Positions 707 to 21,009 of a stretch of DNA of 64,000 nucleotides are shown in pieces. A program made the translations under genes and the position numbers. The DNA is from Pseudomonas migulae. Lineage in GTDB: Bacteria; Pseudomonadota; Gammaproteobacteria; Pseudomonadales; Pseudomonadaceae. Under the pieces are notes generated by a model. The model was given only the letters and a program-made list of their open reading frames with translations. It did no database searches and was not told the DNA's origin. The first letter of the stretch is position 1, and every line of letters starts with the position of its first letter. The stretch spans positions 1,323,501 through 1,387,500 of the forward strand of contig NZ_JALJWR010000001.1 of NCBI RefSeq assembly GCF_024169315.1, in the 5' to 3' direction.

Positions 707-769
707 TTTTTCCACCTTTTTTTATAGTTGTAGTGGGCAGGCGGTCATCCCGGACCGCCTGTCATGGCG

Positions 770-2719: not shown

Positions 2720-3066
2720 CAGATTCTCTCCAGTCCGGTCAAGGCGTGTCTTTGTTGTTATGGCGAGCACCTGTGTGAGCCCGGATTTGCGGGCCGACGC
2801 CCAGGTGCAATCGCTGTGGACATCCTAGGCCGACGGGGTGTGCCTTCAAGGTGCAAAACGTGGGGTGGGCGTTCACAGACTGTGGTTTGAGCGGGGTCGT
2901 TTGCTGGCGCTACGTGGGGAAGATTGCTGATTTGTGTTCACAACACCTTTGCGAAAACAGCCGTTCTGCTCAGGGAGCCCGGCAAGGATACTGATGCCCT
3001 CACGTGTGGCGCACCGTTGATGACTCAACGCCTTACGCCTGATTCGATGTTTGATGAGGACATACA
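2720..3066. other. Divergent intergenic region between pdxA2 and the MDR reductase
   Basis: These 347 bases separate two divergently transcribed genes and must hold both promoters. I see the two ribosome sites (GGAGAG on the minus side, GAGGA on the plus side) but no convincing pair of promoter hexamers. There is no copy of the ATGATATATCAT palindrome found in the neighbouring regulon, which suggests that the operon to the left is controlled separately. Confidence 0.4.
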
Positions 3067-4083: not shown

Positions 4084-4092
4084 AAACAACAT

Positions 4093-4123
4093 CGCCCGAG
4101 ACTCCAGGAGTGGAGCTCGGGCG
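4093..4123. terminator. Strong hairpin between convergent genes
   Basis: CGCCCGAG (4093-4100) pairs with CTCGGGCG (4116-4123), and CTCCA/TGGAG extends the stem inward around a GGAG loop with one bulged base. It lies between the stop codons of the MDR gene and the gntR gene. Read on the minus strand it is followed by TGTTGTTTTC, so it works best as a terminator for gntR; on the plus strand there is no T run. Confidence 0.6.
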
Positions 4124-4157
4124 ACAGGTTCAGCGTGATCCGACGGAGAAGGTGTGA

Positions 4158-4838
4158 TTACGCCTCAGCCAGGTTTTCTTTTTTCTCCAGCCAATCGATC
4201 ATCAGTTCCCCCCAGGCGATGTCTGCCTGCAGCGCGTCTTTGGCTCTGGCCGAGTCGCGGGTGCGCAGACCTTCCAGCACCTCGAAGTGTTTGTGCTTGG
4301 CGCTGGACAGCTCGCGCTTGGGAACCTCGGCATGGAACCGGCTCAGCAGCGGCCCCATGATGACCCACATGTTTTCCAGGGTTTTCGATACCACCGGCAT
4401 GCGCGCCGCAGAGATCAAACCGAAATGGAATTCCCGGTTGAGCAAGGCGGCCTGTCTATAGTCGACGGTGACCGCCTTCTGGAAGGCATCCTGAATGGCT
4501 TCGAGCTTTTCGATTTCGGGTTTGGTGATCCGCTGCGCCGCCACGCCTGCCGCCTCGCCTTCCAGCAAATGACGGATCAACTGGATTTCTCGCAACTGGC
4601 TGACCGTCAGCTCAGGCACATAGATCGACGTCGCAGCCTTCATGTCCAGCGCATGGTCGCTGACCAGGCGGAAAATCGCTTCGCGCACTGGCGTGATCGA
4701 AACACCGAACTCCTCGGCCAATGTACTGATGCGTAACCGATCGCCGGGTTGGTACTGCCCGTCCATCAACGCGGTGCGAATGATGGAATACACCCGTTCA
4801 CTCAAGTTGCCTTTATCAATGGGCTTATGCACGGTCAC
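4158..4838 (-). CDS. GntR family regulator, FCD subfamily
   Basis: The 226-residue protein has an N-terminal winged helix (about 10-75) with the GntR signature PGDRLRISTLAEEFGVS and TPVREAIFRL, then an all-helical FCD ligand-binding domain with REFHF around residue 138 and further histidines that usually form the metal/ligand pocket. The start is a GTG with GGAGA ten bases upstream; no in-frame ATG fits better. A degenerate copy (10 of 12) of the palindrome ATGATATATCAT lies at 4919-4930 upstream of this gene, and better copies precede the four catabolic units to the left and right of 14500. It is therefore the obvious candidate repressor of the 4-22 kb regulon and probably autoregulated. FCD regulators normally release DNA on binding a sugar acid or other carboxylate; the ligand here is unknown. 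Confidence 0.9.
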   Translation of the reverse strand: MTVHKPIDKGNLSERVYSIIRTALMDGQYQPGDRLRISTLAEEFGVSITPVREAIFRLVSDHALDMKAATSIYVPELTVSQLREIQLIRHLLEGEAAGVAAQRITKPEIEKLEAIQDAFQKAVTVDYRQAALLNREFHFGLISAARMPVVSKTLENMWVIMGPLLSRFHAEVPKRELSSAKHKHFEVLEGLRTRDSARAKDALQADIAWGELMIDWLEKKENLAEA

Positions 4839-4918
4839 GGTGACTCGATCTCCATGGTCGATTAGTGTGCGTAAAAGATCGGACTTGTGAATCTGCCGAC
4901 CTGAAGCGCGGATAACGC

Positions 4919-4930
4919 ATCATACATCAT
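4919..4930. promoter_or_regulatory. Putative GntR operator upstream of gntR
   Basis: ATCATACATCAT matches the palindrome ATGATATATCAT in 10 of 12 positions. It is also 11 of 12 identical to the reverse complement of the site at 14529-14540. It sits about 80 bases upstream of the GTG start of gntR, which fits autoregulation. Function is inferred. Confidence 0.45.
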
Positions 4931-4965
4931 CAAATTGCGCCTGCCACTCCCACCGACGATCAGCG

Positions 4966-6021
4966 CTAAATGCGCGCGTCCCGGCGACCGACGCCTTGCA
5001 GCAACACCGCAATGACGATAATCGCACCTTTGATAATCTGCTGCGGATAGGCCGGCACACTCAGCAAATTCATGATGTTGCCGATCAGCCCCAGCACCAG
5101 CACACCCACCACGGTATAAAAAATCGTGCCTTTGCCACCGGACAGTAATGCTCCCCCGATCACGCATGCAGCGATGGCATCCAGCTCCAGAGCCATGCCG
5201 GCGCTGGGCGTCGCGACCCCCGAACGGGAAGCAATCACCACACCGGCCAACGCAGCAAGGCCACCGCAAATGCCATAGGCGGCCAGTTTGTAGCGCTCCA
5301 CTGGAATACCGGCCAGGCGCACCGCCGTTTCGTTGCTACCGCTGGCAATGGTCAGGCGACCATAAGCGTTGTAACGCAGGATCAAGGCAAACACGACCGT
5401 CACCAACCCCGCCAGCCACACCGGCCAAGGAATACCCAGCACGCCATCGGCCAGCCGACCGAAATCACGTAACAGCTGGGCACTGACCAGTCTGTCATCG
5501 AGCCTTTGTGGCTGGCCGTTGGACAAGATGAACGCCAGGCCACGAGCGACCGTCATCATCGCCAGCGTCGCGATAAAAGGCGCCATGCGAAAGTAGGCGA
5601 TGAAAGTACCCGTCACCAGCCCCATCAATACGCCGGAAGCCACCGCGATCGCGACAGCCAGCAGCAAACCAAAACCACCTTCAACCGGCAGCACATTCAA
5701 GGTCATCGCCACCACGATTCCACCAACCGCTGCGACGGAAGCCACGGACAAATCGATGCCAGCCGTCAGGATCACAATCAACATGCCGACGCTGACCAGC
5801 AACAACGGCGTCAATTGGCGCAACAAGTTGCCAATGTTCTGGTAAGTGAAAAAGTCCGCCGACAACACACTGGCGGCGATGGCCAGCAGCACTAACATCA
5901 CCAGCGCGTTGTGTTGCAGAAACAGCCGCTGCAACGAACGCCGGTCTGTCCGGCCCTCTTGAGCGTGATTGTTTTCCTCTAGAAGTTCAGCCGTAGCCAG
6001 CTTGGTATTAGGGTTATTCAT
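4966..6021 (-). CDS. ABC sugar transporter permease, RbsC type
   Basis: The 351-residue protein is an inner-membrane permease of the ribose/xylose class (BPD_transp_2). About ten hydrophobic stretches are visible after a charged 35-residue N-terminal tail. The conserved cytoplasmic segment ILTAGIDLSVAS and the later AVRLAGIPVERYK loop are family marks for contact with the ATPase. Its ATG overlaps the stop codon of the ATPase gene (ATGAATAA), so the two are translationally coupled. With the ATPase and the periplasmic binding protein it completes an importer for a monosaccharide-, polyol- or furanose-like compound. It is the last gene of the unit starting at the aldehyde dehydrogenase. Confidence 0.93.
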   Translation of the reverse strand: MNNPNTKLATAELLEENNHAQEGRTDRRSLQRLFLQHNALVMLVLLAIAASVLSADFFTYQNIGNLLRQLTPLLLVSVGMLIVILTAGIDLSVASVAAVGGIVVAMTLNVLPVEGGFGLLLAVAIAVASGVLMGLVTGTFIAYFRMAPFIATLAMMTVARGLAFILSNGQPQRLDDRLVSAQLLRDFGRLADGVLGIPWPVWLAGLVTVVFALILRYNAYGRLTIASGSNETAVRLAGIPVERYKLAAYGICGGLAALAGVVIASRSGVATPSAGMALELDAIAACVIGGALLSGGKGTIFYTVVGVLVLGLIGNIMNLLSVPAYPQQIIKGAIIVIAVLLQGVGRRDARI

Positions 6022-7525
6022 GGTGCTCGACTCCCATTGCCAGGCAAATCATTTCTTGTTCTTTAATACGTTCGCCCATCAGTTCGCCGGCGATCGCGCC
6101 TTCACGCATCACCAGCACGCGATCACACATGCCGATGATTTCAATCATTTCCGAGGACACCATGATGATTGCCACGCCTTGTTCGGCGAGGCCATTGATG
6201 ACCCGGTAGATTTCGGTTTTCGCCCCCACATCCACACCGCGGGTAGGCTCGTCGAGAATCAGCACGCGACAGCCCGCATCGACCCACTTCATCAGGGCGA
6301 CTTTCTGTTGGTTGCCGCCTGACAGATCACCCACCAACTGCTCGATCGAGTGCGTCTTGACTGCCAGTTGCTGGCGCAAGGCTTCGATGCCCTGGGTTTC
6401 CCGGCCACTGGCAATCCAGCCCATGGGCCCGGTATAGGGACTGTCGGGGCGGAGCGCGCCGTTGACCCGGATCGACATTTCCAGCAGCACGCCTTGCTGC
6501 TTTCGGTCTTCAGGCAGCAGGCCAATGCCGTTGGCAATCGCTTCACGGGGGGTACGGTTATGGATTTCGCGGCCATCCAGATACAGGACGCCGGAGGTTT
6601 TCCGATCGGCACCGAAGATCGCCCGCATGGTTTCAGTCCGACCGGCGCCGACTAGTCCACAAAAGCCCAGGACCTCGCCCGCTCGAACTTCAAAACTCAC
6701 ATCGCGCACGAGACGTCCGGCATTCAGGTGTTCGACTTTGAGCAACACCTCACCAAGCTGCTGGTTGCGCGGAGGAAACAGATCACTGAGTTCACGACCG
6801 ATCATCATCTCGATCAGGCCACGCTCGGTAATGTCGGCCAGTTCCAGGGTGCCGACCGTCTTGCCGTCCTTGAGCACCGTGGCGCGATCGCAAATCCGGA
6901 AAATTTCATCCATGCGGTGCGAGACGTAAATAATGCACGCCCCTTTGCGGCGCAACTCATCGAGGATCTTGAACAGTTTTTCCGCCTCGTGGGAGGTGAG
7001 CACCGCTGTCGGCTCATCGAAGACCAGCACCGACGAATTGCGCGACAGCGCTTTGCAGATCTCCACGGCTTGTTGATAGGCCACCGGCAGACTACCCACC
7101 GGCTGACGCACATCGATATCACTGAAACCCAGCTCATCCAGAATCCCCCGGGCTTTTTTGCGCATGGCCGCCCACTGGACGAACCCTTTGCGCTGACCCA
7201 GATCGTCGATGCATATGTTCTCGGCCACCGACAAATGCGGCGCCAGGGCGAACTCCTGATAGATGATCGAAATGCCCAGCTTGAGGGCATCGCCAGGTTT
7301 GCGAATTTCGACGGTCTCGCCGTTCAGGCTCACTCCCCCGGAATCCCGTACATAGGCCCCGGAAAGGATCTTCATCAACGTAGACTTACCGGCGCCGTTC
7401 TCGCCCATCAACGCGTGAATTTCGCCTGCATGCGCTGAAAAACTCGCATTGCTCAGCGCGCTGATTCCACCGAATCGCTTCGAGATGTCGAGCATCTCTA
7501 CGGCAGGTTTGTGCATCGCTTTCAT
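6014..7525 (-). CDS. ABC sugar importer ATPase, RbsA/MglA type (tandem ATPase domains)
   Basis: About 503 residues in two fused ABC domains. The first has Walker A GENGAGKSTLMK, Walker B VLVFDEPTAVLT and a degenerate signature LSRNSSV. The second has a degenerate Walker A GLVGAGRTETMRA, the intact signature DLSGGNQQKV and Walker B VLILDEPTRGVDVG. That asymmetry is normal for the carbohydrate uptake transporter-2 class. I chose ATG 7525 because GGTGA lies five bases upstream; an in-frame GTG at 7534 is possible. The gene is followed with an 8-base overlap by the permease and preceded by the binding protein (87 bases apart). It energises uptake of the regulon's substrate. Confidence 0.93.
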   Translation of the reverse strand: MKAMHKPAVEMLDISKRFGGISALSNASFSAHAGEIHALMGENGAGKSTLMKILSGAYVRDSGGVSLNGETVEIRKPGDALKLGISIIYQEFALAPHLSVAENICIDDLGQRKGFVQWAAMRKKARGILDELGFSDIDVRQPVGSLPVAYQQAVEICKALSRNSSVLVFDEPTAVLTSHEAEKLFKILDELRRKGACIIYVSHRMDEIFRICDRATVLKDGKTVGTLELADITERGLIEMMIGRELSDLFPPRNQQLGEVLLKVEHLNAGRLVRDVSFEVRAGEVLGFCGLVGAGRTETMRAIFGADRKTSGVLYLDGREIHNRTPREAIANGIGLLPEDRKQQGVLLEMSIRVNGALRPDSPYTGPMGWIASGRETQGIEALRQQLAVKTHSIEQLVGDLSGGNQQKVALMKWVDAGCRVLILDEPTRGVDVGAKTEIYRVINGLAEQGVAIIMVSSEMIEIIGMCDRVLVMREGAIAGELMGERIKEQEMICLAMGVEHHE

Positions 7526-7612
7526 ACTGTTCACCGTCTATAAACTGTCGCCGTTCGAGCTGTAGCCGCCGACAAAAATGCAGCGGCTACAGTCCGTTTC
7601 ACTCGCGTGAAA

Positions 7613-8854
7613 TCACTTCATCGCGGTTTTGATCTGCTCGATGGAGCGGAAAGGTGGGACGGTTGCGGTAGACGGCGGCAGGCTGTCAGCCTTGATGTAG
7701 GTGTCGACGTTGTCCGGCGTGATCAGCGTGACCGGGAAGTAAGAAGCCAATGGCAGGTTGTTGGCATTCAGGCCCTTGTCGAGTATCTGGTGAATCAACT
7801 CGATGGCGGCCACACCGGTTTCCGAACCACTGTTGGTGGCGGTGACCAGCAATTTACCTTGCTTGATCAGGTCCAGTGCAACCCGAAAACTTCCAGCCCC
7901 CGACGCGACCATCACGCTGTTTTTCTTCCCTGCATTGTCAAGGGCGTTGATCGCACCAATGGCAATGAAGTCGTTCTCTGCCAGGACCAGATTGAGCTTG
8001 TCACCCTGGGACGAGAGGATGTCCTCGGTGGCCGCCAACCCGCCCTCTTCGGTCCAGTCACCACGGCCCCAGGCCAACACATTGAAGCCACCTTCCGGCC
8101 AGCTGAAGCTGCCCTTGGCCTTGACTTGCTGGAACAGCCTGAAGCCCTTGAGCATCGCGTCTTCTTTGGACAAACCCAACTTGCGCTCCTGCGCACGGGC
8201 ATAGACGATTCCGGAAATCATGCCGTTGAGTCGGCTTTCGGAAGTGGAATTGCCCATCACGCCAATGACCATGGCGGCATTGATGACTTTGGCCGGATCG
8301 GTCTTGGCCGCCACGTAACGCCCGGCCTCGAAACCACTTCCGTACGGGTTGCCGGTGCTGGTGGTGATGACCGGCGACCGCGCGTCTGGCGCAGTGCCGA
8401 CGGTGATCACCGGGATCCCCGCCGCCACCGCCCGCTCGACATCCGACACGGAGCCGAGGACATCGGTAGGGTCAATCACGATCAGGTCGACGCCCAAGGT
8501 AATGAAGTTATCGACCTGCGCACTCTGCTTGGCGACATCACTGTCCGCCACTTGCAGTTCAATGTCGTAGTTGTACTGTTTGGCGATGGTTTTGGCGTCG
8601 TCGATCATTGAGACGAACCATGGGTTTCCCAACGTGATTTCAGTCCAGCCGATACGCAGGCGCTCGCCCTTCTTTTTTAGCGGCAAGCCTTTGTTGATCG
8701 AGGTGCGATCCGGCATGTCGGGGTCAATCACACCGGACAACGCGGTGTTGGGAATCAAACTGTAGATTTCATGCTTGGGAGCCGCCCAGGCGTGGGTGCC
8801 GATAAGGCTCGCCAGAGCTAATGCAGTGATCGAACGAACAGCTGACAGATTCAT
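7613..8854 (-). CDS. Periplasmic sugar-binding protein of the ABC importer
   Basis: The 413-residue protein has a Sec signal peptide (LTALALASLIG-like core, cleavage near AWAAPKH, about residue 25) and a type I periplasmic binding fold (Peripla_BP_4) with IGWTEITLGNPWF, VDLIVIDPTD, GIPVITVGT and a C-terminal TLITPDNVD segment. It is about 100 residues longer than RbsB; the extra length includes some 40 residues after the signal peptide and a loop near GSFSWPEGGF. ATG 8854 has GGAGAA at the right distance. It lies 80 bases downstream of the aldehyde dehydrogenase in the same direction, so it is probably transcribed from the operator-bearing promoter near 10490. It sets the import specificity; the ligand is unknown. 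Confidence 0.92.
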   Translation of the reverse strand: MNLSAVRSITALALASLIGTHAWAAPKHEIYSLIPNTALSGVIDPDMPDRTSINKGLPLKKKGERLRIGWTEITLGNPWFVSMIDDAKTIAKQYNYDIELQVADSDVAKQSAQVDNFITLGVDLIVIDPTDVLGSVSDVERAVAAGIPVITVGTAPDARSPVITTSTGNPYGSGFEAGRYVAAKTDPAKVINAAMVIGVMGNSTSESRLNGMISGIVYARAQERKLGLSKEDAMLKGFRLFQQVKAKGSFSWPEGGFNVLAWGRGDWTEEGGLAATEDILSSQGDKLNLVLAENDFIAIGAINALDNAGKKNSVMVASGAGSFRVALDLIKQGKLLVTATNSGSETGVAAIELIHQILDKGLNANNLPLASYFPVTLITPDNVDTYIKADSLPPSTATVPPFRSIEQIKTAMK

Positions 8855-8934
8855 AATTATTATTCTCCAGTGCGCTGATTTTTGAGCTGTGATGCAGGTG
8901 CCGCTTCGAACAGCACCGATTTCTCGTTGACGAC

Positions 8935-10440
8935 TCAGTCCTGCAAATCGATCCAGGCAGATTTGAGTTCCGAGTACTTGTCCAGCGCGTGCAGTGACCG
9001 GTCACGGCCGTTGCCCGATTGCTTGTAGCCACCAAACGGCATGGTGATGTCGCCACCGTCGAAGCAGTTGACCCAAACGCTGCCGGCACGCAGGGAACGG
9101 ATGATCGAGTGGGCACGCGACAAGTCGCTGGTCCAGAGACTGGCGGCCAGGCCATAGGGCGAGTCATTGGCGATGCGCACGGCGTCCAGATGGTCCTTGG
9201 CGCTTATTACTGAAAGCACCGGCCCGAAGATCTCCTCGCGGGCGATGGTCATGTCGTTGGTGACGTTGTCGAAGATCGTCGGCGGGATGAAGAAGCCGTC
9301 GGCCAATGCGCCTGAGGCACGTTCGCCACCGAGGATGATTCGGGCACCTTCCTCGGAGCCTTTCCTGATGTAACCCAGCACCCGATCCATTTGTGCCTTG
9401 TCGACCATGGCGCCCAACTGTGTAGACGGATCGAGCGGGTCGCCGATGGCGATGGTTCGGGCAACTTTCAACACTTCGGCAACCAATTCGTGGCGAATGC
9501 CCTCTTCCACGATCAACCGTGACGGCGCCACGCACACTTCACCCTGGTTGAAAAACATCGATCTGGCCGCGGTGGCGGCCGCCTTTTCCAGGTCACGGCA
9601 GTCATTGAGAATGATGTTCGGGGTCTTGCCGCCGCACTCCAGCCACACCCGTTTCATGTTCGACTGTCCGGCGTATTGCAGGAACAATTTGCCGACTTCA
9701 CCGGACCCGGTGAACACCAGCGTGTCGACATCCATGTGCAGCCCAAGCGCGCGACCAGCAGTCGGACCGAACCCCGGTAGCACGTTGAATACGCCCGGCG
9801 GAATGCCCGCCTGTGCGGCCAGCTCAGCGATGCGCAGCGCCGTCAGCGGCGACTGTTCGGCGGGTTTGAGAATCACCGAGTTGCCTATCGCCAGCGCCGG
9901 CGCGACCTTCCACATCGCCATCAACATCGGGAAATTCCAAGGGGTCACGGCTGCGACCACGCCGATGGCTTCGCGGGTAATCATGCCCAGCGCGCCCGGA
10001 CCTGAAGGGGCGATTTCGTCGTAAACCTTGTCGCAGCATTCGGCGTACCACTGCAGGCACTCAAGCACCGCATGCACATCGAACCCGGCGCTTTCGGACA
10101 CCGGCTTGCCCATGTCCAGCGTCTCCAGCAACGCCAGTTCAGTCATGTGCTGCTCGAACAACGCAGCGAAGCGCAGCAGGACTTTCTTGCGTTCCTTGGG
10201 CGCCAATTGCGACCACACGCCGCTGTCGAACGCCTGTCGAGCGACCTTGACTGCGACGTCGACGTCTTCAGCCTGGCAGGACGCTACGTGATTCAGTACC
10301 TGGCCGTTGCGCGGGGAAATATTGGCGAAGGTTGCACCGCTCAAAGCGTCGACAAACCGGCCATCAATGAAGGCCTGCCCAGGCAGTTTCAGGGCGGCGA
10401 CACGCTGCTGGACCGCAGCGATATCAACGAGAGTGTTCAT
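8935..10440 (-). CDS. NAD(P)-dependent aldehyde dehydrogenase, PuuC/BetB-like
   Basis: This 501-residue ALDH has the full family architecture: VTPWNFP (about residue 165), the coenzyme-loop FTGSGEVGK, the general base in LECGGKTPN, and the nucleophile cysteine in NQGEVCVAPSRL. The closest recognisable type is the gamma-glutamyl-gamma-aminobutyraldehyde/aminoaldehyde class, but the class is broad. ATG 10440 follows AGGAGA. The promoter region carries a copy of the regulon palindrome at 10485-10496, and the ABC importer genes follow downstream, so the gene is the head of an uptake-and-oxidation operon. It probably oxidises an aldehyde made by one of the nearby alcohol dehydrogenases to an acid. 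The exact substrate is not readable. Confidence 0.92.
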   Translation of the reverse strand: MNTLVDIAAVQQRVAALKLPGQAFIDGRFVDALSGATFANISPRNGQVLNHVASCQAEDVDVAVKVARQAFDSGVWSQLAPKERKKVLLRFAALFEQHMTELALLETLDMGKPVSESAGFDVHAVLECLQWYAECCDKVYDEIAPSGPGALGMITREAIGVVAAVTPWNFPMLMAMWKVAPALAIGNSVILKPAEQSPLTALRIAELAAQAGIPPGVFNVLPGFGPTAGRALGLHMDVDTLVFTGSGEVGKLFLQYAGQSNMKRVWLECGGKTPNIILNDCRDLEKAAATAARSMFFNQGEVCVAPSRLIVEEGIRHELVAEVLKVARTIAIGDPLDPSTQLGAMVDKAQMDRVLGYIRKGSEEGARIILGGERASGALADGFFIPPTIFDNVTNDMTIAREEIFGPVLSVISAKDHLDAVRIANDSPYGLAASLWTSDLSRAHSIIRSLRAGSVWVNCFDGGDITMPFGGYKQSGNGRDRSLHALDKYSELKSAWIDLQD

Positions 10441-10484
10441 GCTGTTGCGTCTCCTGTTGTTGTTTTAGGCGTAGGCGCCCAACG

Positions 10485-10496
10485 ACGATATATCAT
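10485..10496. promoter_or_regulatory. Putative GntR operator of the aldehyde dehydrogenase-ABC operon
   Basis: ACGATATATCAT is one base from the perfect palindrome ATGATATATCAT and is followed by GCAT, exactly as at the site 17750-17765. It lies 45 bases upstream of the minus-strand start at 10440. A weak promoter, TTGCGA with TATATC 16 bases downstream on the minus strand, would place the site over the -10 element. Confidence 0.6.
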
Positions 10497-10579
10497 GCAT
10501 TATTAAAATCGCAAGCGAAGGAATGCCCTGATTCAAGGTCTTTTCTTCACAACTGCTGTTCGTAAAAAACGCGTAATTC

Positions 10580-11857
10580 TCAAAAACTGACTTCGGTTTT
10601 CAGGCCGAACACCACCACGCTTTTATCCCCGCTCAACCCGCCGGGATTAACGACGTACTGCACGTTGGGTCGCAGCGTCAGGGCCGGCGTCACACTGACG
10701 CCGTAGTAAAGCTCCACCGGGTATTCGGTGTCCGGCGCCGGTTGGGTGAATGCGTTTTGCTGACGGACGCGCTTGGCGGATTGTTCATTCACCTCAAGAC
10801 GACCGATCGCCAAGCCGATTTCATCCTGCGGACGCGCGGCAAACGGGCCGCTGATAAACGCGCCGACGTGAAAGACCTTTTCCACGTAGGACACATCGCG
10901 ATCCGACTGAATAAAATTGGCGAACAGGGACAGGGCACGGGCACTGTTATTCGGGTCCTGATACACCCGTTGCTCGGCCATGGCGTAATAACCGCTGGCC
11001 TGATCGTCCTGATCCGGCGCATTGCCAGTCAGGCCGATGGGCTGGCCATTGACGTCGTGGTACACATCGTTGAAGTCACCGGTATTGCGCCAGATACCTG
11101 CCCGATAGCTGCCCGGCAAGCCGTTGAGAGTTGGCTTCCAGGCCAACTCGCCGACCGCCAGATAACCGGTGGTGCCGGAAGGGCTGCCAAAGTTCAGGCC
11201 TTGGGAGTTTTCGGTAAAGCGCGGGTTGACCTGATACAGCGAAGCATTGACGGACAGTTCGTCAGTCAGCTTAGCTGCCACTGCGGCCCCCCATTGGCTG
11301 ACGGGCCAGGTGAACCAGTTGGGCGTGATGTAACCGGGCACGGTGCCGCAGAACGTCAGGTTTTGAAATTTGCAGGAAAACGGGAACACATCCCCACTCA
11401 TCGGCAAGCGCCCGAGCTTCACCACCAACCGATCATCCAGCAAGGCCTGCTGGTAATAGAACTGCACCAGGCGGGTAACGCTGCCGTAACCGTAGATTTC
11501 CTGGGCGGCCAGCAAGGTGTTGGTGCCCGCCTTGGCAGTGAGGTTTTCGCCGTTGCGGTCGCTGAAGGTCATACGAAAACTCGCCCCCTGCCAGTCCAGC
11601 AACTTCTGCAAATCGAAGTTGGTATCGATCATGAGCTGATCGCTGTAAGTCCCTTTGTGTTCGTCGCCGCCCTGGGTGTTGTAGGCCAATTCGTTAACGT
11701 AGGTCAGCTGGAAATCCACGCCCTGCTCATGCAAGCGGGTACGTTCACCATCCCAATCCCCCAACAGAAAATCACTCGGGGAGTAACTGGCTGCATAACT
11801 ATTTGGTGATGCGCAGGCACACAAAAGTCCTACGGCAACTAGCGTTTTGTTGGTCAT
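10580..11857 (-). CDS. Carbohydrate-selective porin, OprB family
   Basis: The 425-residue protein starts at ATG 11857 (weak GGGAA site); a longer frame reaching 11950 would bury the signal peptide. MTNKTLVAVGLLCACA leads to a signal cleavage near SYAASY. The mature part opens with LLGDWDGERTRLHEQGVDF, the hallmark of OprB porins, and alternates short amphipathic strands to a terminal phenylalanine (KTEVSF), the outer-membrane assembly signal. OprB-type channels admit neutral sugars and polyols, so the substrate of the adjoining importer and dehydrogenases is probably such a compound. It follows the Fe-ADH gene by 125 bases; it may be cotranscribed with it or have its own promoter in that gap. 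Confidence 0.9.
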   Translation of the reverse strand: MTNKTLVAVGLLCACASPNSYAASYSPSDFLLGDWDGERTRLHEQGVDFQLTYVNELAYNTQGGDEHKGTYSDQLMIDTNFDLQKLLDWQGASFRMTFSDRNGENLTAKAGTNTLLAAQEIYGYGSVTRLVQFYYQQALLDDRLVVKLGRLPMSGDVFPFSCKFQNLTFCGTVPGYITPNWFTWPVSQWGAAVAAKLTDELSVNASLYQVNPRFTENSQGLNFGSPSGTTGYLAVGELAWKPTLNGLPGSYRAGIWRNTGDFNDVYHDVNGQPIGLTGNAPDQDDQASGYYAMAEQRVYQDPNNSARALSLFANFIQSDRDVSYVEKVFHVGAFISGPFAARPQDEIGLAIGRLEVNEQSAKRVRQQNAFTQPAPDTEYPVELYYGVSVTPALTLRPNVQYVVNPGGLSGDKSVVVFGLKTEVSF

Positions 11858-11982
11858 TTTTATTGTTCCCGAAACTGTTTTTATTGTTGGTCTTAGTATT
11901 TTTCGAGCATGCAAAACCCCGCCAACCCAACTGACGGGTCGGTCAAACAACTTGCTTCAGATCTTTGTGACAGAGACTTCGG

Positions 11983-13155
11983 TTAGAAACACATTCTCAC
12001 TATGTCGGCGACTTCCTCCTTGCTGTTGATCTTCTTCGGATGACAGGCCAGGTCCTGGTTGAAACTGGTCCAGACTGTTTGGGCAAATTCATCGATCTGC
12101 TCCGGACGCAAACCGTAACTGCGGAAGGTGTCGGTGACGCCCAACGTGCTGAACAGGGTTTTCAGGAGGTCGGGCAGACGCTCTGCGCGTGCACTCTGCG
12201 TCAGACTCAGCGTCGACGGGTCGAGAATCCCAGCCACACGCGCGAACTTGTCGGCACCCACCGGCAGTGTCCACCTGATGACATGAGGGGTACTGGCCGC
12301 CACGGTGCCGCCGTGGGGCGCGTCGGTCATCGCCCCCAACGGCTGACCCAAGGCATGGGAAACCGTGACCCCGGCACTGGCGATTGCCATGCCGCCGAGG
12401 GTCGAGGCGAAGGCCATGCGCGCGCGAGCCTCCAGATCATCACCGTGCTCCACGCACTGCAGGGCATTGGCCGCGAACAAACGAATCGACTCCAGGGCAA
12501 CCATTTCCACCCACGGTGTGCAGTGAACGCTGATGTACGCCTCCAGCGCGTGACAGAAGGTATCGACAGCGGTCAGCGCGGTCAGCTTCGGCGGTTTCGA
12601 CGCCAGTATTTGCGGGTCGATCAAGGCGACATCGGGGTAAATGAACGGGTTGACAATGGCGCATTTCAGACCCAGTTCAGGATTGTTGATCACCGCAAAC
12701 GGGGTCGCTTCGGTGCCTGTGCCGGAGGTGGTCGGCACCACCAGCAACGGCAGCCCACGGCTTTGCGGGCGGGTGACGGCTTCGCCCAGGCGCTCGGTAT
12801 AGTCCCAGCAACTGCCGCCATGAACGGCTACGAAAGCGACGGCTTTGGCCGAGTCGATCGCACTGCCGCCACCCACCGCCACCACCACATCACAACCGGC
12901 CTCGCGAACCTGCTCGACCGCACGATCGATCGAGGTATGCCGGGGGTTGGGTACGATGTCGTAGAATTCGATAAACCCAATGCCGCGCTCGGCGAAACTG
13001 CCGGTAATGTGAGCCACCAGGTCACTGCCCTGTAGAAACGGGTCGACCATCAAAAAGACTGTTTTGCCGAACGGCTCAACCTTTTCGCCCATGCGCTTGA
13101 TCGCGCCGACTTCAAAATCCAGGGTCAGCGGCAGACTTGCCTGAAATGCTTTCAT
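11983..13155 (-). CDS. Iron-containing (group III) alcohol dehydrogenase
   Basis: The 390-residue protein starts at ATG 13155 with AGGTGA upstream (a longer frame to 13239 has no better site). The N-terminal nucleotide-binding half has VAVGGGSAIDSAKA and VPTTSGTGTEATPFAV. The helical metal half carries the ligands in TAVDTFCHALEAY (Asp, His) and SHALGQ plus APHGGTVA (His, His), the standard set for Fe/Zn group III enzymes such as FucO and the 1,3-propanediol and hydroxyacid dehydrogenases. It begins 40 bases after the stop of the GldA-like gene, so both are one operon with the porin. Likely role: NAD-dependent oxidation of an alcohol, or reduction of the matching aldehyde, in the same pathway. 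Confidence 0.92.
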   Translation of the reverse strand: MKAFQASLPLTLDFEVGAIKRMGEKVEPFGKTVFLMVDPFLQGSDLVAHITGSFAERGIGFIEFYDIVPNPRHTSIDRAVEQVREAGCDVVVAVGGGSAIDSAKAVAFVAVHGGSCWDYTERLGEAVTRPQSRGLPLLVVPTTSGTGTEATPFAVINNPELGLKCAIVNPFIYPDVALIDPQILASKPPKLTALTAVDTFCHALEAYISVHCTPWVEMVALESIRLFAANALQCVEHGDDLEARARMAFASTLGGMAIASAGVTVSHALGQPLGAMTDAPHGGTVAASTPHVIRWTLPVGADKFARVAGILDPSTLSLTQSARAERLPDLLKTLFSTLGVTDTFRSYGLRPEQIDEFAQTVWTSFNQDLACHPKKINSKEEVADIVRMCF

Positions 13156-13195
13156 CAGTTCACCTGTTGTTATGGCGTGTACGCTGCTGACGGGC

Positions 13196-14347
13196 TCAGT
13201 CCACCAGCAACGACCCGCCTTTTTTATAGAATTCGCCAAGGTCGCTGGCCGCGATCAGCGCTGCTTTCATTTCATCGAAAGTGACTTCGAACGGTTCGAC
13301 GTTGCTGGTCTGGTTGGGATCGGCGGCGGTGCGTGCGACGCAGTCGAGTTCGTGCGCAGTGATGTCGGCCAGCGCAAGATCCTCGAAGGTGACCGGCAAC
13401 CCGATACTCAGGCAGAACCTCAGCACCGTATCCAGCTCCCGGCTGGATTTGCCTTCAAGCACCAGCATCACCACAACGCCAAAAGCCACGTATTCGCCGT
13501 GGTACATCGTCGCCCGGGCGCCCAGCTCACTGAACCCGCAATACACCGCATGGGCAGTCGCCACGCCGTTGCTTTCGAAACCGATGCCGCTCATGAGCGC
13601 ATTGGCTTCCACCACGCGATTGAAGGCTTTGGTCACGCAGTGGTGTTCAGCGGCGCGCCTGGCTTGCAGGCCGTCTTCAAGCAGCACCCGATAGCACAAC
13701 TCGGCGATGGCCATGGAAGTCAGCGTCGATTTGGCACCGCCGCCGCCCTCTTTCAGCCCCGCACCGGCATTACCGAGAAAATTGTCCCGGTGCGATTCAA
13801 CGCAGGTGCGGGCTTCGAAATAAGTCGAGAGGGCGTCGCCCATTCCGGCCACCAACAACCGCACGGGGGCCTGGGCGATGATCCAGGTATCGACCACCAC
13901 CACGTCCGGGCTGCGCTCATAAAAAAGCACGTCGTCAAACGCGCCTGCTTCGGTGTACAGCACCGAAAGCGAGCTGGTGGGCGCGTCGTTCGAAACGATG
14001 GTGGGCACGATACACAGCGGCACTTTTGCCCCATTGGCCACAGCCTTCGCAGCATCGAGCACCTTGCCGCCGCCGACACCAATCACCCCGTCGCACTCGA
14101 AGGCGTTGATGCTCGCGGCGAGGCGCTGGATTTCCTGACGCGTCACTTCACCGGAAAATATCCCGTAGTGCAGCTGGGTGTGCTCGGCATCGAAACTGGA
14201 GCTCAGAGTCTGTTTCAGGCTGTCGAGACGGCCCTGAGTGGTAATCACCAGAAACCGTCGGCCGAACCAGGCCACATGCCGGTGCAGTCGTTCGAGTTCC
14301 TTGTAGCCCTGGATATAACGGCCGGGGGCAGCAAACATTTGAGTCAT
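13196..14347 (-). CDS. GldA-like glycerol/polyol dehydrogenase, paralogue 1
   Basis: The 383-residue protein belongs to the glycerol dehydrogenase branch of the metal-dependent alcohol dehydrogenases. It shows IGVGGGKVLDAAKA for NAD binding, the IVPTIVSNDAPTSS segment, and metal ligands in GMGDALSTYFEA (Asp), TAHAVYCG (His) and MYHGEYVAFG (His). It starts PGRYIQG like the second paralogue at 17839-18930, and the two share the SNDAPTS and IAQAP segments, so they arose by duplication. ATG 14347 has AGGA upstream. The promoter carries a perfect regulon palindrome at 14432-14443. Probable reaction: oxidation of a secondary hydroxyl of a polyol to the ketone, giving a dihydroxyacetone-like end. 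Confidence 0.9.
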   Translation of the reverse strand: MTQMFAAPGRYIQGYKELERLHRHVAWFGRRFLVITTQGRLDSLKQTLSSSFDAEHTQLHYGIFSGEVTRQEIQRLAASINAFECDGVIGVGGGKVLDAAKAVANGAKVPLCIVPTIVSNDAPTSSLSVLYTEAGAFDDVLFYERSPDVVVVDTWIIAQAPVRLLVAGMGDALSTYFEARTCVESHRDNFLGNAGAGLKEGGGGAKSTLTSMAIAELCYRVLLEDGLQARRAAEHHCVTKAFNRVVEANALMSGIGFESNGVATAHAVYCGFSELGARATMYHGEYVAFGVVVMLVLEGKSSRELDTVLRFCLSIGLPVTFEDLALADITAHELDCVARTAADPNQTSNVEPFEVTFDEMKAALIAASDLGEFYKKGGSLLVD

Positions 14348-14431
14348 GTCATCGTCATCCTGGCCCCATCGTGGAGGCTTTTTGTTATTGCTTTGAGGAC
14401 GTTTGCGAGAGGCTCATCTCTCGGCGGATCG

Positions 14432-14443
14432 ATGATATATCAT
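14432..14443. promoter_or_regulatory. Putative GntR operator, perfect palindrome (GldA1-FeADH-OprB promoter)
   Basis: ATGATATATCAT is a perfect 12-base palindrome 85 bases upstream of the GldA1 start. It lies in the 222-base divergent region shared with the GMC oxidoreductase, whose own promoter has a second, weaker copy at 14529-14540. The same perfect sequence recurs at 17750-17761. Confidence 0.65.
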
Positions 14444-14502
14444 ATTTTATTTTCAGCTACCAAACGTTTTTTTGCGAAACGCCCAACGTGAAAAACCCGG
14501 GA

Positions 14503-14540
14503 TTGACGCTTGGGGGGAACAAAGATATATGATGTATGAA
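14503..14540 (+). promoter_or_regulatory. Promoter with overlapping GntR-like operator for the GMC oxidoreductase operon
   Basis: TTGACG (14503-14508) is followed after 17 bases by TATATG (14526-14531), a reasonable sigma-70 promoter. The sequence ATGATGTATGAA at 14529-14540 matches the regulon palindrome in 9 of 12 positions and overlaps the -10 element, a position where a bound regulator would block transcription. Start codon 14570 lies 30 bases further on. Function is inferred from position and recurrence. Confidence 0.5.
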
Positions 14541-14569
14541 AACAAGAACAACACAGTTCGGAGGAAGGC

Positions 14570-16174
14570 ATGCACGATTACGTTGTCATTGGAGGCGGTT
14601 CTGCGGGCTGCGCGTTGACCGGCCGCCTGATCGAAGCCGGCGCTTCGGTCCTGCTGATTGAGGCAGGGCCGCGCGATACTCATCCGCTGATTCATATCCC
14701 CGCCGGATTCACCCGGCTGTTGTCCAGCCCGCTGCTGTCGCGTCACGAAACCCAACCGCAAACAGCCATGGACGGGCGCAAGCGCATTCTTCCCCAGGGT
14801 CGGGTGCTGGGCGGTGGGAGCTCGGTGAATGCGCTGATTTATATCCGCGGCCAGCACGAGGATTACGACGACTGGGCCAGCGCAGGCTGCGACGGTTGGT
14901 CGTTTCGCGAAGTGCTGCCGTACTTCAAGCGGGCCGAGGACAATGAGCGCTTCGACAATGGCTACCACGCTACTGGAGGCCCGCTGGGTGTCTCGGACCT
15001 CAAGCAAGTGTGCGAGTTGTCGCGTGGGTTTGTGCGCGCCGCGCAGCAGGCCGGCATCCCCTTCACGCCCGACTTCAATGGCGAACGCCAGAACGGCGTC
15101 GGCTTCAATCAGATCACAGCTCGCAACAATCGTCGCTGCAGCGCCGCCGTGGCGTACCTGCGCGCAGCGGAAAAATCCGATCGCCTGACCGTCGTCACTG
15201 ACGCCACGGTGCAACGAATTCTGGTCGAAGGCGATCAAGCCGTGGGGGTTGAATACGTCCACAAAGGCCAGCGGGTGCAGGCGCGGGGCAGCAAGGAAGT
15301 GATCCTCAGCGCAGGCGCGATTCAGTCACCCAAGCTGTTGATGCTGTCCGGCATCGGTCTCGCCGAAGAACTTCAACGCCATGGCATTCCGTTGCTGCAT
15401 GAGCTGCCCGGCGTCGGCCAGAACCTGCAGGACCACGCGGAAGTCGGCAGCATTGCCTACTGCCACGGCAAGTACGGTTACTACGGTCAGGACAACGCCT
15501 TGAACACGGTCAAGAACGGTCTGCAGTATTTGATGTTTGGCAGTGGCCCGGTCAGCTCGAACGTCACCGAGGCCTGTGCGTTCGTCAACACCGACAATGC
15601 GCAAGAACGGCCCAACGCCCAGATGCATTTCGTGCCCATCGTGTTTTTCGACCTTGATCAGGAGACCATCAAAAAGCCCGGTGCAACCATCAACACCTGC
15701 GTGCTGCGCCCAATGAGCCGTGGCGAAATCCGCCTGGCCGACAACAAGGTCGACACGCCTCCGCGCATTGACCCTCGTTACTTCGCTCACCCGGAGGACC
15801 GTCGTATCGCGATCAAGGGGTTGAACCTGTCACGGGAAATTCTCGCTCAACCAGCCATGCGCACCTTCACCGGTGAAGAGGTTTTTCCAGGATTGGACGT
15901 GCGCAGCGATGAAGCACTGCTGAGCTACATCAACCAACGGGCCAAGACCGTTTACCACCCGGTCGGCACCTGCAAGATGGGCGACGATGACATGGCCGTG
16001 GTCGATCCGCAGCTGCGTGTGCGCGGCCTGCGCAATCTGCGGGTAGTCGACGCCTCGATCATGCCCAACCTGATATCGGGCAACACCAATGCGCCGTCAA
16101 TCATGATCGGCGAAAAAGCTGCGGATATGATCCTCGGACGCGCCGCATTACCCGCTTCTACAGCCCATTTTTGA
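14570..16174 (+). CDS. GMC family FAD-dependent oxidoreductase (choline dehydrogenase-like)
   Basis: The 534-residue GMC flavoenzyme opens with the dinucleotide motif VVIGGGSAGCALTGRL and IEAG, has the two GMC signatures (RGQHEDYDDW context after GRVLGGGSSVNALIY, and the GAIQSPKLLMLSGIG segment), and ends with the catalytic pair in VYHPVGTCKMG (His) and SGNTNAPSIMIGEKAA (Asn). No signal peptide is seen, so it is cytoplasmic and probably passes electrons to quinone at the membrane, as BetA and other alcohol dehydrogenases of this branch do. ATG 14570 has GGAGGAAGG upstream. It heads an operon with the AroE-like and SDR genes. It is a candidate for the first, quinone-coupled oxidation of a primary or secondary alcohol of the imported compound. 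Confidence 0.93.
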   Translation: MHDYVVIGGGSAGCALTGRLIEAGASVLLIEAGPRDTHPLIHIPAGFTRLLSSPLLSRHETQPQTAMDGRKRILPQGRVLGGGSSVNALIYIRGQHEDYDDWASAGCDGWSFREVLPYFKRAEDNERFDNGYHATGGPLGVSDLKQVCELSRGFVRAAQQAGIPFTPDFNGERQNGVGFNQITARNNRRCSAAVAYLRAAEKSDRLTVVTDATVQRILVEGDQAVGVEYVHKGQRVQARGSKEVILSAGAIQSPKLLMLSGIGLAEELQRHGIPLLHELPGVGQNLQDHAEVGSIAYCHGKYGYYGQDNALNTVKNGLQYLMFGSGPVSSNVTEACAFVNTDNAQERPNAQMHFVPIVFFDLDQETIKKPGATINTCVLRPMSRGEIRLADNKVDTPPRIDPRYFAHPEDRRIAIKGLNLSREILAQPAMRTFTGEEVFPGLDVRSDEALLSYINQRAKTVYHPVGTCKMGDDDMAVVDPQLRVRGLRNLRVVDASIMPNLISGNTNAPSIMIGEKAADMILGRAALPASTAHF

Positions 16175-16189
16175 AAGAGGAATGTCGAC

Positions 16190-16990
16190 ATGCCCATCAG
16201 CGGAAAAACCCGAGTAGTGGTTCATCTGACCTACCCCGCCAAACACCTGCGCACTCCCGAATTTTTCAACCCGCTGCTGGAACGACTCGGCCACGACGGT
16301 GTGCTCGTGCCCTGGGAGGTTTCACCGGCGAACCTCGCCACGGCGTGGGAAGGTTTGCGCGGGATTGAAAACCTGGCGGGGGTGATTGTCACCGTCCCGC
16401 ACAAGCTGGAGGTGGCGAAATTGTGCGATGAGCTCAAAGGCACTGCCAGTGTGCTGAAGGTCTGCAACGTCGCCAAACGCCTGCCCGACGGCCGCTTCAG
16501 CGGGCGCATGTTCGATGGCGACGGCTTTGTCGGTGGCCTGAAAAAACAAGGCCATGACCTGAGCAATAAACGTGTGCTGTTGCTGGGTGCGGGGGGCGCG
16601 GCGACTGGAATCGCTCATGCACTGCTCGCCGAGACCATTCAAGAACTGGTGATCAGCAACCGCACCCCCGCCAAGGCTGAAGAGCTGGCCCGCGAACTGC
16701 GACAGCTATTCCCGGGTCGGCTGATCAATGCCGGCCCCGCCGACGCCACGGGTTTCGATGTGGTGATCAACGGCACCGCGCTAGGTCTCAAAGCCGAGGA
16801 CCCGTTGCCACTGCCCGTAGAAACCCTCGCCCCCGGTACGGTCGTCGGCGAAGTGGTGATGAACCCGGACATCACCCCGCTGCTGAGCGCCGCCGCCGAG
16901 CGTGGCTGCGTCATCCACAAAGGCGCGCACATGATCACCGGCCAGATCGATCTGCTGGCCGAGTTTCTGTTTTCCAAAACCGGCGTTTGA
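16190..16990 (+). CDS. Shikimate dehydrogenase-like protein (AroE paralogue, probably not for shikimate)
   Basis: This 266-residue protein has the two-domain AroE fold: VIVTVPHK with Lys72 at the catalytic position, a FDGDGF segment with Asp109 at the second catalytic position, and the NADP-binding loop GAGGAATG (133-140) followed by SNRTPAKAEELA. The substrate-carboxylate motif of true shikimate dehydrogenases, HSxSP with two serines, reads HLRTP here (19-23), so both serines are lost. The C-terminal MITGQIDLLAEFLF is normal. Catalysis on a hydroxylated ring or polyol is plausible but the ligand is probably not shikimate. It lies 15 bases after the GMC gene with AGAGGA upstream, and 28 bases before the SDR, so its role belongs to the catabolic operon. 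Confidence 0.85.
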   Translation: MPISGKTRVVVHLTYPAKHLRTPEFFNPLLERLGHDGVLVPWEVSPANLATAWEGLRGIENLAGVIVTVPHKLEVAKLCDELKGTASVLKVCNVAKRLPDGRFSGRMFDGDGFVGGLKKQGHDLSNKRVLLLGAGGAATGIAHALLAETIQELVISNRTPAKAEELARELRQLFPGRLINAGPADATGFDVVINGTALGLKAEDPLPLPVETLAPGTVVGEVVMNPDITPLLSAAAERGCVIHKGAHMITGQIDLLAEFLFSKTGV

Positions 16991-17018
16991 TACGCCCTTC
17001 TCCGTATAAGGAACGACC

Positions 17019-17711
17019 ATGAAAAAGACTGCAATCGTCACCGGCGGCGGCTCCGGCATCGGCCTGGCCACGGCACTACGCCTGCACGCCGACGGTTATG
17101 ACGTATTCACCGTGGGCCTCGGCGAACCCGAGCAACGCGTCGAAGGCATTCATTACCAGGAACTGGACGTGACCAACGACGCGGCGGTCGCCGGGTACTT
17201 CGAGCGGTTCGAACGCGTTGACGCCATCGTCAACGCCGCCGGCATCATTGACCACAATCGCGAGTGGGAACTGGACGGCTTCAGCCGCGTCATCGACGTC
17301 AACCTCACCGCCGTGTTGCGCATCACCAACGCCGCCCTTCCCGGCCTGAAAGCCGCGCGCGGAGCGGTGGTGAACTTCGCCTCGATGCATGGGATTTTCG
17401 GTTCCGCCAAGACCCCGGCCTACGCGTCGAGCAAAGCGGCCATCTCAGAATTGACACGCTGCATGGCCGTGGCCTGGGCGACCGATGGCGTGCGGGCCAA
17501 TGCCGTGGCACCGGGCTGGATTCTGACCAACCTGTCGCGTCGCGCGTTCGAAGACCCGGCACGCTCCGAAGGCATCATGGCGCGTATCCCGATGAAAACC
17601 TGGGGTGCGCCCGAAGACGTGGCCAACGTGATCGCCTTCCTGGTGTCGGACAACGCGCGTTACGTGACGGGCACAACGTTGCCGGTTGATGGCGGGTATT
17701 CGATCGCCTGA
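17019..17711 (+). CDS. Short-chain dehydrogenase/reductase (SDR)
   Basis: The 230-residue classical SDR has the cofactor loop TGGGSGIGLATAL (8-20), the NAAGI motif, and the catalytic tetrad with Ser in NFASMHG and YASSK (Tyr-x-x-x-Lys), and closes with VTGTTLPVDGGYSIA. The Asp expected to select NAD after strand 2 is replaced by FTVGLGEPE, which leaves cofactor choice uncertain. ATG 17019 follows AAGGA. It ends the GMC-AroE-like-SDR operon, 38 bases before the operator of the next unit. It probably oxidises or reduces a hydroxyl/keto intermediate of the same pathway. Confidence 0.92.
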   Translation: MKKTAIVTGGGSGIGLATALRLHADGYDVFTVGLGEPEQRVEGIHYQELDVTNDAAVAGYFERFERVDAIVNAAGIIDHNREWELDGFSRVIDVNLTAVLRITNAALPGLKAARGAVVNFASMHGIFGSAKTPAYASSKAAISELTRCMAVAWATDGVRANAVAPGWILTNLSRRAFEDPARSEGIMARIPMKTWGAPEDVANVIAFLVSDNARYVTGTTLPVDGGYSIA

Positions 17712-17733
17712 CGTCATCTCGTAGCTTGAGTGC

Positions 17734-17761
17734 TTGACCGTTTAAAAACATGATATATCAT
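17734..17761 (+). promoter_or_regulatory. Promoter with perfect GntR-like operator for the GldA2-transketolase operon
   Basis: TTGACC (17734-17739) and TATCAT (17756-17761), 16 bases apart, form a likely sigma-70 promoter. The perfect palindrome ATGATATATCAT occupies 17750-17761 and covers the -10 element. The start codon of the downstream gene is at 17839. The same 12 bases occur at 14432-14443. Confidence 0.6.
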
Positions 17762-17838
17762 GCATCACTACAAGATCAGGACTCGGCATCTGCCGCCGAG
17801 CCTCGAATAACAATGAGCAGTGAAGTGAGAGGTGCTGA

Positions 17839-18930
17839 ATGAATCTGGTTTTCGGCTCGCCCGGACGGTACGTCCAGGGCACTGAAGTGCTCGCCCAGGC
17901 GGGAACTTATCTGGCGCACTGCGGACGCCAGGGCGTGGTGGTCATCGACAGCTACGTGCTGGGTCTGATCCGCCAACGCCTCGATGACACCTGCGCCCAA
18001 GCAGGTGTCGAGTTGCACTACATCACCTTCGACGGCGAAATCACCGCCGACGGGATTGCCGGCCTGAGAAAGGCCGCCGCAGAGGTCGAGTTCGACATGA
18101 TCCTGGCCGTCGGTGGCGGTAAATGCATCGACGCCGGCAAAGCCCTCGCCCACACCTCGGGTCGCGCACTGATCACCATGCCGACCGTGGCGTCCAACGA
18201 TGCACCCACCTCGAAAAACTACGTGGTCTACGACGCCCATCACCAACTGAGCGAAGTCGGCCACTTGCTGGTCAGCCCGCGCTACGTGCTGGTGGACACC
18301 TCGTTGATTGCCCAGGCACCGCGGCAGTTTTTGCTCGCAGGGATTGCCGATGCGCTGACCAAAAAGTTTGAAGCCGAGCAGTGTTACAAATCCGGTGGCG
18401 TGAACATGTTCGGCGCACGCCCGGCGCTGTCGGGGCTGGTGCTGGCGCGCGAGTGCTATCACCTCATTCGTCAATACGCCGAACCGGCACTGGCCCAGGC
18501 CGGTACGGGCGAGGTGACGGTCGCCTTCGATCACTTGATCGAAGCGGTGCTGTTGATGAGTGGCCTGGGATTCGAAAGCGGTGGCCTGTCCATTGCCCAC
18601 GCAATGACCCGCGGCCTGTCAAAAATCCCCGGCGCGCAACAGCAGGTTCACGGTTTTCAAGTGGCGTATGGCTTGCTCGTGCAGCTGGTGCTTGAAGACC
18701 GCAACGCCGACCTCATGGGCGATATGTTGAGCTTCTATCAACGCATCGGTTTGCCTCGCAACCTGGCCGAACTGGGCGTACTTAACGTCGACGACTCAGT
18801 GCTCATGCAAGTGGCCGAACCCACGTTGAAAGCCCCACATGCACGCAACTTTTTCTCCGATTCGGGTGGCGCATTGACCTGCGACGAACTGATCGGGGCG
18901 ATGCGCGCGCTGGAAGGCTTGACCCACTGA
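17839..18930 (+). CDS. GldA-like glycerol/polyol dehydrogenase, paralogue 2
   Basis: The 363-residue protein is a diverged paralogue of the gene at 13196-14347. It has GSPGRYVQG at the start, LAVGGGKCIDAGKA for NAD binding, MPTVASNDAPTSKN, and metal ligands in GIADALTKKFEA (Asp), SIAHAMTRGL (His) and QQVHGFQVAYG (His). ATG 17839 has GAGAGGTG upstream. It heads the unit with the split transketolase, 106 bases before it. The pairing with a transketolase suggests that it forms the ketose the transketolase cleaves. Two such enzymes in one regulon could act at different positions, or on different stereoisomers, of the polyol. Confidence 0.9.
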   Translation: MNLVFGSPGRYVQGTEVLAQAGTYLAHCGRQGVVVIDSYVLGLIRQRLDDTCAQAGVELHYITFDGEITADGIAGLRKAAAEVEFDMILAVGGGKCIDAGKALAHTSGRALITMPTVASNDAPTSKNYVVYDAHHQLSEVGHLLVSPRYVLVDTSLIAQAPRQFLLAGIADALTKKFEAEQCYKSGGVNMFGARPALSGLVLARECYHLIRQYAEPALAQAGTGEVTVAFDHLIEAVLLMSGLGFESGGLSIAHAMTRGLSKIPGAQQQVHGFQVAYGLLVQLVLEDRNADLMGDMLSFYQRIGLPRNLAELGVLNVDDSVLMQVAEPTLKAPHARNFFSDSGGALTCDELIGAMRALEGLTH

Positions 18931-19036
18931 GCACCGACTCGAAAGCGCCGTTGAACCCACAACCACCCCGTTGAAGTTCAAACCCCGCCACTGAGATTCA
19001 ACTTCAACAAATTCATGCCTGTGATTGGAGGTAGAG

Positions 19037-19924: not shown

Positions 19925-19926
19925 AC

Positions 19927-20907: not shown

Positions 20908-20918
20908 CGCTGAACCCT

Positions 20919-21009
20919 TGTGGGAGCGGGCTTGCCCGCGAAGGCGGTGTGTCAGTCACCATCAAATTCATCTGACCCATCGCCTTCGCGAGCAAGCTCG
21001 CTCCCACAT
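20919..21009. repeat. REPIN (two inverted REP sequences)
   Basis: GTGGGAGCGGGCTTGCCCGCG begins at 20920 and its inverted partner CGCGAGCAAGCTCGCTCCCAC ends at 21007, separated by a short spacer. This is the usual Pseudomonas REP doublet. It lies in the 204-base gap between the transketolase and the MHS permease and could attenuate readthrough. Confidence 0.85.

Follow-up and report, generated by a model that had tools for sequence, protein, structure and literature searches.

A conserved palindrome as the predicted operator of an McbR-like GntR/FCD regulator in a gene cluster of Pseudomonas migulae

Copies of the 12-base palindrome ATGATATATCAT lie ahead of five genes or operons in an accessory gene cluster of Pseudomonas migulae, among them the gene of a GntR/FCD regulator of 226 residues (gntR). 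The window analysed was a stretch of 64 kb (genome positions 1323501-1387500), and the genome consisted of one contig of 6,535,528 bases. We consider it about 85% probable that the palindrome is the operator of this McbR-like regulator, which would repress the five promoters until released by a metabolite. Control of five promoters by one regulator was the best-supported reading because the sites are unique in the genome, local and conserved with the regulator in nine genomes, and also because a site at AroE stands beside gntR in a rearranged relative and sister palindromes are found around distant homologues.

Occurrence and conservation of the palindrome

Five sites had been assigned to the palindrome by the first-pass annotation, and all five places were read back in the window as quoted: 4919-4930 (two changes relative to ATGATATATCAT), 10485-10496 (one), 14432-14443 (none), 14529-14540 (three) and 17750-17761 (none). 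The fourth was replaced by 14522-14533 (AAGATATATGAT, two changes), which overlaps it and whose register is kept by the other species. As the annotation had described, the sites are located between genes, ahead of the named genes and operons. The predicted operators of gntR (4919-4930, with ATGATGTATGAT on the transcribed strand), of the aldehyde dehydrogenase and ATP-binding cassette transporter operon (ALDH-ABC; 10485-10496, extended site 10485-10500) and of the operon for GldA1, an iron-containing alcohol dehydrogenase and a porin (GldA1-FeADH-porin; 14432-14443) are on the minus strand. Those of the operon for a GMC oxidoreductase, an AroE-like dehydrogenase and a short-chain dehydrogenase (GMC-AroE-SDR; 14522-14540, both registers included) and of GldA2-transketolase (17750-17761) are on the plus strand.

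For the genome-wide scan that had been proposed as a check, ATGATATATCAT was searched on both strands. Three places matched with at most one mismatch, all of them in this locus (10485, 14432 and 17750). With at most two mismatches, 30 places were found, five of which fall inside these 12.8 kb (the same three plus 4919 and 14522); the corresponding Poisson P of 2.3e-9 carries the caveat that the motif was chosen from the same stretch. A control pattern, the palindrome read backwards, gave one place at up to one mismatch and six at up to two. The other 25 two-mismatch places were classified by a crude test based on open reading frames and G+C content at third codon positions as coding-like (8) or noncoding-like (17). 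Within the window alone, nine places were obtained at up to three mismatches against 6.7 expected, a number reached in 18 of 100 shuffles and thus not significant. The significance therefore derives from the whole-genome counts, and a test restricted to the window would have misled.

A one-sided extension, AYGCATSATAYATCWT, is common to four of the five sites and lacking at the GldA1 site. Searched genome-wide at three mismatches, the extended 16-base pattern gave 54 + 64 matches, compared with 34 + 19 for the backward control. Zero or one mismatch was reached at only four places in the genome, all of them among the five sites, and the remaining site was one of nine rows at two mismatches; since the pattern was built from these sites, this shows separation and not independent discovery. 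In a scan of the window with a position weight matrix trained on the five sites themselves, the weakest of them scored 23.5 and the best non-overlapping place, at 54289, scored 13.6. The same scan gave nothing of comparable strength to these sites at 2720-3066, which bears out the earlier view that the pdxA2 side is separate. Likewise, no site was found ahead of the MFS gene at 21112. Elsewhere in the genome, at 2699714-2699725 (L118), noncoding-like DNA contains the perfect palindrome AAGATATATCTT, which differs from the operator by two changes; judged by its sequence, it may be a remote target for this regulator.

A comparison with orthologous loci of other Pseudomonas, likewise proposed earlier, gave a consistent picture. 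With GldA1 as query, the cluster was located in six named Pseudomonas (L004-L009), and a seventh match (L010, 26% identity) was left out. The regulator itself was found at E 1e-60 or better in 5 of 298 genomes of the genus, the window's own included. After removal of G002 and G140 as duplicates of L006 and L008, nine genomes were compared. Over the gntR, GldA1-GMC and GldA2 regions, with the ALDH region left out of the count, 51 of 55 columns within sites were invariant, compared with 190 of 421 noncoding columns outside them (Fisher P 1.5e-12). The 12-base site was identical in all eight genomes having the region for GldA1 and, together with its -35 and -10 elements, in all eight for GldA2. 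It was identical in seven of eight for GMC, where L005 differs, and in eight of nine for gntR, where L005 is one base off. The ALDH site was present in four of eight aligned genomes (the window, L004, L006 and L007). Among matches over 300 bases, L005 showed no counterpart of window positions 16989-23261 (SDR, GldA2, transketolase and MFS). A rearranged arrangement was found in L017, in which gntR adjoins AroE-SDR-GldA2-transketolase-MFS and sites at gntR and at AroE lie 70 bases apart. The 20 kb read there (positions 1-20000) contained no ABC transporter, ALDH, porin, GldA1 or GMC, and this gene set is perhaps the core pathway.

The regulator and the palindromes of its homologues

The presumed DNA-binding protein is encoded at 4158-4838 on the minus strand. 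Its scores for PF00392 (57.7 bits, cut-off 27) and PF07729 (73.5 bits, cut-off 24.3) place it in the GntR superfamily and the FCD (FadR) subfamily. The best solved relative was Escherichia coli McbR (PDB 4p9f, E 2.5e-26), and the score for the McbR equivalog NF008504 (PRK11414) was 122.9 bits against a cut-off of 225; as judged by sequence, the protein is McbR-like and not McbR. A structure model made from seven near-identical rows (mean predicted local distance difference test score 50.1, predicted template modelling score 0.36) was too poor to be used for the six-helix test of the VanR group. Residues of the recognition helix were read from an alignment of the 19 FCD proteins of this genome, with FadR numbering mapped by eye, guided by a table in PMC4494728 and by PMC7797058. 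The helix column contained Arg in 17 proteins, Lys in one and Ile in this regulator. None of the other 18 proteins has TGWTRYAWCA upstream of its own gene (two have it elsewhere in the 3.3-3.4-kb stretch), and T[TG]GT-N1-3-AC[AC]A is found upstream of five of them.

Stretches of about 3.6 kb around 66 regulators of 32-45% identity were collected from searches at the level of the phylum, the family and the order of G462, with at most 30 loci per search, i.e. part of the matches in the latter two. At E 1e-27, a class-level search (369 genomes) returned no gene other than that of the window. The regulators formed 27 clusters at 65% protein identity, two of which were merged to give 26. The pattern TGWTRYAWCA was present in 12 of the 26 cluster representatives (mean 0.47 and largest value 3 in 100 simulations) and in 13 of 26 clusters once all members were counted (mean 0.73 and again at most 3 in 100 simulations that took up to four members); stretches of this length can contain sites of other regulators. 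It ranked first among 60 column-permuted patterns; the runner-up reached 7, two of which share TGTTATAACA. By locus, it occurred in 44 of 66, each locus having one kind. In a large Pseudomonadaceae group among the loci listed, the palindrome lies mostly about 850-900 bp upstream of the regulator. In a word-free test, perfect 10-bp palindromes with TG arms were found within the regulator's own upstream 250 bp in 11 of 26 clusters, and the next arm class reached four; two of the five TG words in this set (TGCTGCAGCA and TGGCCGGCCA) fall outside the TGWTRYAWCA class. Over whole loci, TG arms were not the commonest (18 of 26 clusters, vs 20 for GG, 20 for CG and 19 for GC).

The kind of palindrome follows the tree of the regulators. 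In a quick tree of 51 regulators, built after 16 similar ones had been dropped and supported by SH-aLRT only, 39 labelled rows carried five kinds of palindrome, for which six changes suffice. The branch that bears the window's regulator is long and belongs to no well-supported small group. Three of its five nearest rows by tree path share a group with L032 and L064, both of which have an exact TGATATATCA, about 2 kb downstream of the regulator start in L032 and about 290 bases upstream of it in L064. None of the 66 homologues has Arg at the helix position. The word TGTGATCACA was found in five of six clusters with an S-x-M-P helix and in none of 20 with S-x-T-P. The TGAT and TGTT kinds are told apart by one wing residue (G or N vs R, K or T) in all 15 cluster-level cases, which are not phylogenetically independent and for which the column was chosen after looking; in addition, L029, L081, L082 and L085 have G at the wing position yet lack TGTTATAACA. 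Loss of the helix arginine was rejected as the sole cause of the loss of GT/AC, since the regulators associated with TGTTATAACA also lack Arg yet keep GT-N4-AC.

Taken at the level of sequence, these data lead us to favour, with some reserve, the idea that an FCD/GntR branch without the guanine-reading helix arginine (S-x-T-P or S-x-M-P in place of S-R-T-P) reads TG-N6-CA palindromes whose inner code would be branch-specific: TGATATATCA (window, L032 and L064), TGATGCATCA, TGTTATAACA or TGTGATCACA. Such a helix/wing code, recognised only in retrospect, draws on a small number of independent changes. The shift from T to M that accompanies TGTGATCACA agrees with a correlation, reported in PMC4494728, between the position of FadR Thr46 and the central operator bases. 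As a separate observation, TGTGATCACA occurs in the own upstream 250 bp of L065, L067, L069, L073, L075, L076, L077, L080 and L082 and also at L081, all FCD regulators with S-x-M-P helices and sites of the same TG-N6-CA form.

Promoter position and competing explanations

Promoter fits were sought along the direction of transcription, with candidate -10 hexamers limited to those close to the site. At gntR, the right half of the palindrome is the -10 hexamer TATGAT, with GTGGCA 17 bases upstream, in eight of nine genomes (TAGGAT in L005). At GldA2 it is TATCAT, with TTGACC 16 bases upstream, in all eight genomes having the region. At GMC, either TTGACG-17-TATATG or TTGACG-19-TATGAT is found in eight of eight genomes, and the right half overlaps the -10 element. 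The best fit at the AroE site of L017 was TTGACT-17-TATATC. An unbiased scan of positions 4700-21200 gave three promoter-like matches, two of which have their second hexamer inside a site, in agreement with the first-pass statement that at least two sites overlap a -10 region; the number of matches in this interval was not above that of shuffles (3 vs 5.0).

The position of the right half on or across the -10 element at gntR, GMC and GldA2 fits repression by occlusion, and it is from this position that we infer repression. A dimer of the regulator would sit on the half-sites ATSATA and TATSAT, the latter being or overlapping the -10 hexamer, and would thereby keep RNA polymerase off the gntR, ALDH-ABC, GldA1-FeADH-porin, GMC-AroE-SDR and GldA2-transketolase promoters. 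A metabolite of a carbohydrate or polyol substrate would then release it from the operator. The arrangement is that expected of an autoregulated local catabolic repressor, with sites on its own promoter and on those of neighbouring operons. The first-pass proposal that one GntR/FCD repressor controls itself and the cluster thus gained support from the comparison for five promoters, whereas the span had to be reduced from about 18 kb to about 16.7 kb (4158-20907, all operons together) and the ALDH-ABC site proved not to be universal.

Several observations weigh against this reading. The ALDH site is absent from L005, L008, L009 and L018; the spacer between porin and ALDH is nearly gone in L008 and L009, so that ALDH-ABC may come under the GldA1 promoter there, and it is different in L005 and L018. 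Promoter fits at GldA1 and ALDH were poor, with weak -35 matches. Of the five sites in the window, the one at gntR is the most degenerate, and for this reason the window's gntR stretch has no exact TGWTRYAWCA. Among the homologues, 22 of 66 stretches lack this pattern, and upstream of most of these regulators nothing rose above background. Only 11 of 66 have the pattern within 250 bp upstream of the regulator start, and in the remainder it is found at neighbouring genes or absent. No site is listed for the five rows that lie closest to this regulator by path in the tree (L060, L059, L058, L062 and L066). The 17 noncoding-like places elsewhere in the genome make further regulon targets possible. 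Finally, PMC13343897 describes McbR as binding AT-rich sites in very large numbers, which differs from the behaviour of a local repressor.

The protein might instead act as an activator or dual regulator at some of the sites. Some FCD members, such as CitO, are reported to activate, and the weak -35 matches at GldA1 and ALDH would suit such a role. Where the promoter is clear (gntR, GMC and GldA2), the site lies on the -10 element, where a bound protein would block, and in the case of the repressor Atu1419 the -10 elements of two promoters carry palindromes (PMC7797058); we therefore regard an activating role as unlikely. Less probable still is the view, likewise drawn from sequence, that the palindromes are real operators of a regulator encoded elsewhere and that the GntR protein would be a passenger. 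The degenerate site of gntR and the homologue stretches without such a palindrome (22 of 66) would agree with it, but gntR has a site at its own promoter and accompanies the sites in nine genomes, the rearranged L017 being one of them, and the kind of palindrome follows the tree of this very family.

It is also improbable, at roughly the level of one chance in twenty, that the conserved element is nothing but the -10 box of similar promoters. In favour of this view, the right half coincides with the -10 hexamer at gntR and GldA2, whereas at GMC the two overlap, and any palindrome made of TATSAT is inherently AT-rich and promoter-like. Against this, the left half and the flanking bases are as conserved as the right half, the full 12-mer occurs within one mismatch nowhere else in a promoter-rich genome, and sister palindromes accompany homologous regulators in other genera. 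Chance matches picked by eye, to which the window-only count at three mismatches would lend itself, are negligible as an explanation in view of the whole-genome counts and the conservation in nine genomes.

Gene content and relation to known systems

The genes under the five predicted operators probably serve the utilisation of a sugar or sugar alcohol. Positions 4966-10440 (minus strand) encode an ABC permease, an ATPase and a periplasmic binding protein (RbsABC-like) together with an aldehyde dehydrogenase, forming one operon by gene order. GldA1 (glycerol dehydrogenase family), an iron-containing alcohol dehydrogenase and an OprB-type porin follow at 10580-14347 (minus strand), the GMC oxidoreductase, AroE-like dehydrogenase and short-chain dehydrogenase at 14570-17711 (plus strand), and GldA2 with the two chains of a split transketolase at 17839-20907 (plus strand). 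The AroE-like protein (16190-16990) has the 5-ketofructose reductase 7cok among its matches, though not as the top one, and the transketolase resembles 6yak in having split chains. The combination of an AroE-like dehydrogenase, a GldA paralogue and a split transketolase hints, and no more than hints, at an undescribed keto-sugar or polyol route. Adjoining the cluster, genes for an outer-membrane factor, an RND pump and an HlyD-type protein form an operon-like row at 23262-29054, in which the window scan gave no operator of this kind.

With exact coordinates for the predicted operators, and with comparison across genera linking them to the regulator, the accessory cluster becomes a testable regulon. 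In the open-licence literature, no paper was found for ATGATATATCAT, and none for TGATATATCA, TTGTTATAACAA or TGTTATAACA combined with GntR; for TGATGCATCA, no title among the matches listed concerned a GntR regulator, and among the titles listed in broader searches none concerned this regulon. A branch-wide TG-N6-CA pattern with helix/wing-linked inner bases was not seen in this literature either, with no search made there for TGTGATCACA itself. Should the inner bases indeed covary with helix and wing residues, operators would become predictable for many uncharacterised McbR-like regulators, and a branch that lies outside the published FCD consensus would have a readable code leading from protein to operator.

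That consensus, TKGT/ACMA with mostly three and sometimes two nucleotides between GT and AC, comes from a survey of the FadR subfamily (PMC4494728). The regulons surveyed resemble the present one in having local palindromic operators, and they differ in that the window core TGATATATCA reads GA-N4-TC, departing from the published GT/AC rule, so that TKGT-N2-3-ACMA is absent from it. As the survey lists FCD exceptions, such an operator is no bar to membership of the FCD subfamily by domain. McbR (YncC), an FCD/GntR protein of the VanR group, shares the identical SITPVREA of the recognition helix, and its reported preference for ATATAT (PMC13343897) matches the centre of the window operator; it differs in regulating biofilm and other genes, not a catabolic cluster. 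By analogy, the experimental case that comes closest is an autoregulated FCD repressor of a local catabolic cluster, Atu1419 of Agrobacterium fabrum (PDB 6z74 and others). According to PMC7797058, its palindrome overlaps the -10 elements of two promoters and sits between the -35 and -10 elements of its own. Atu1419 is a tetramer; unlike the regulator described here, it has the helix arginine, and its palindrome, ATGTATACAT, has 10 bp and contains GT/AC.

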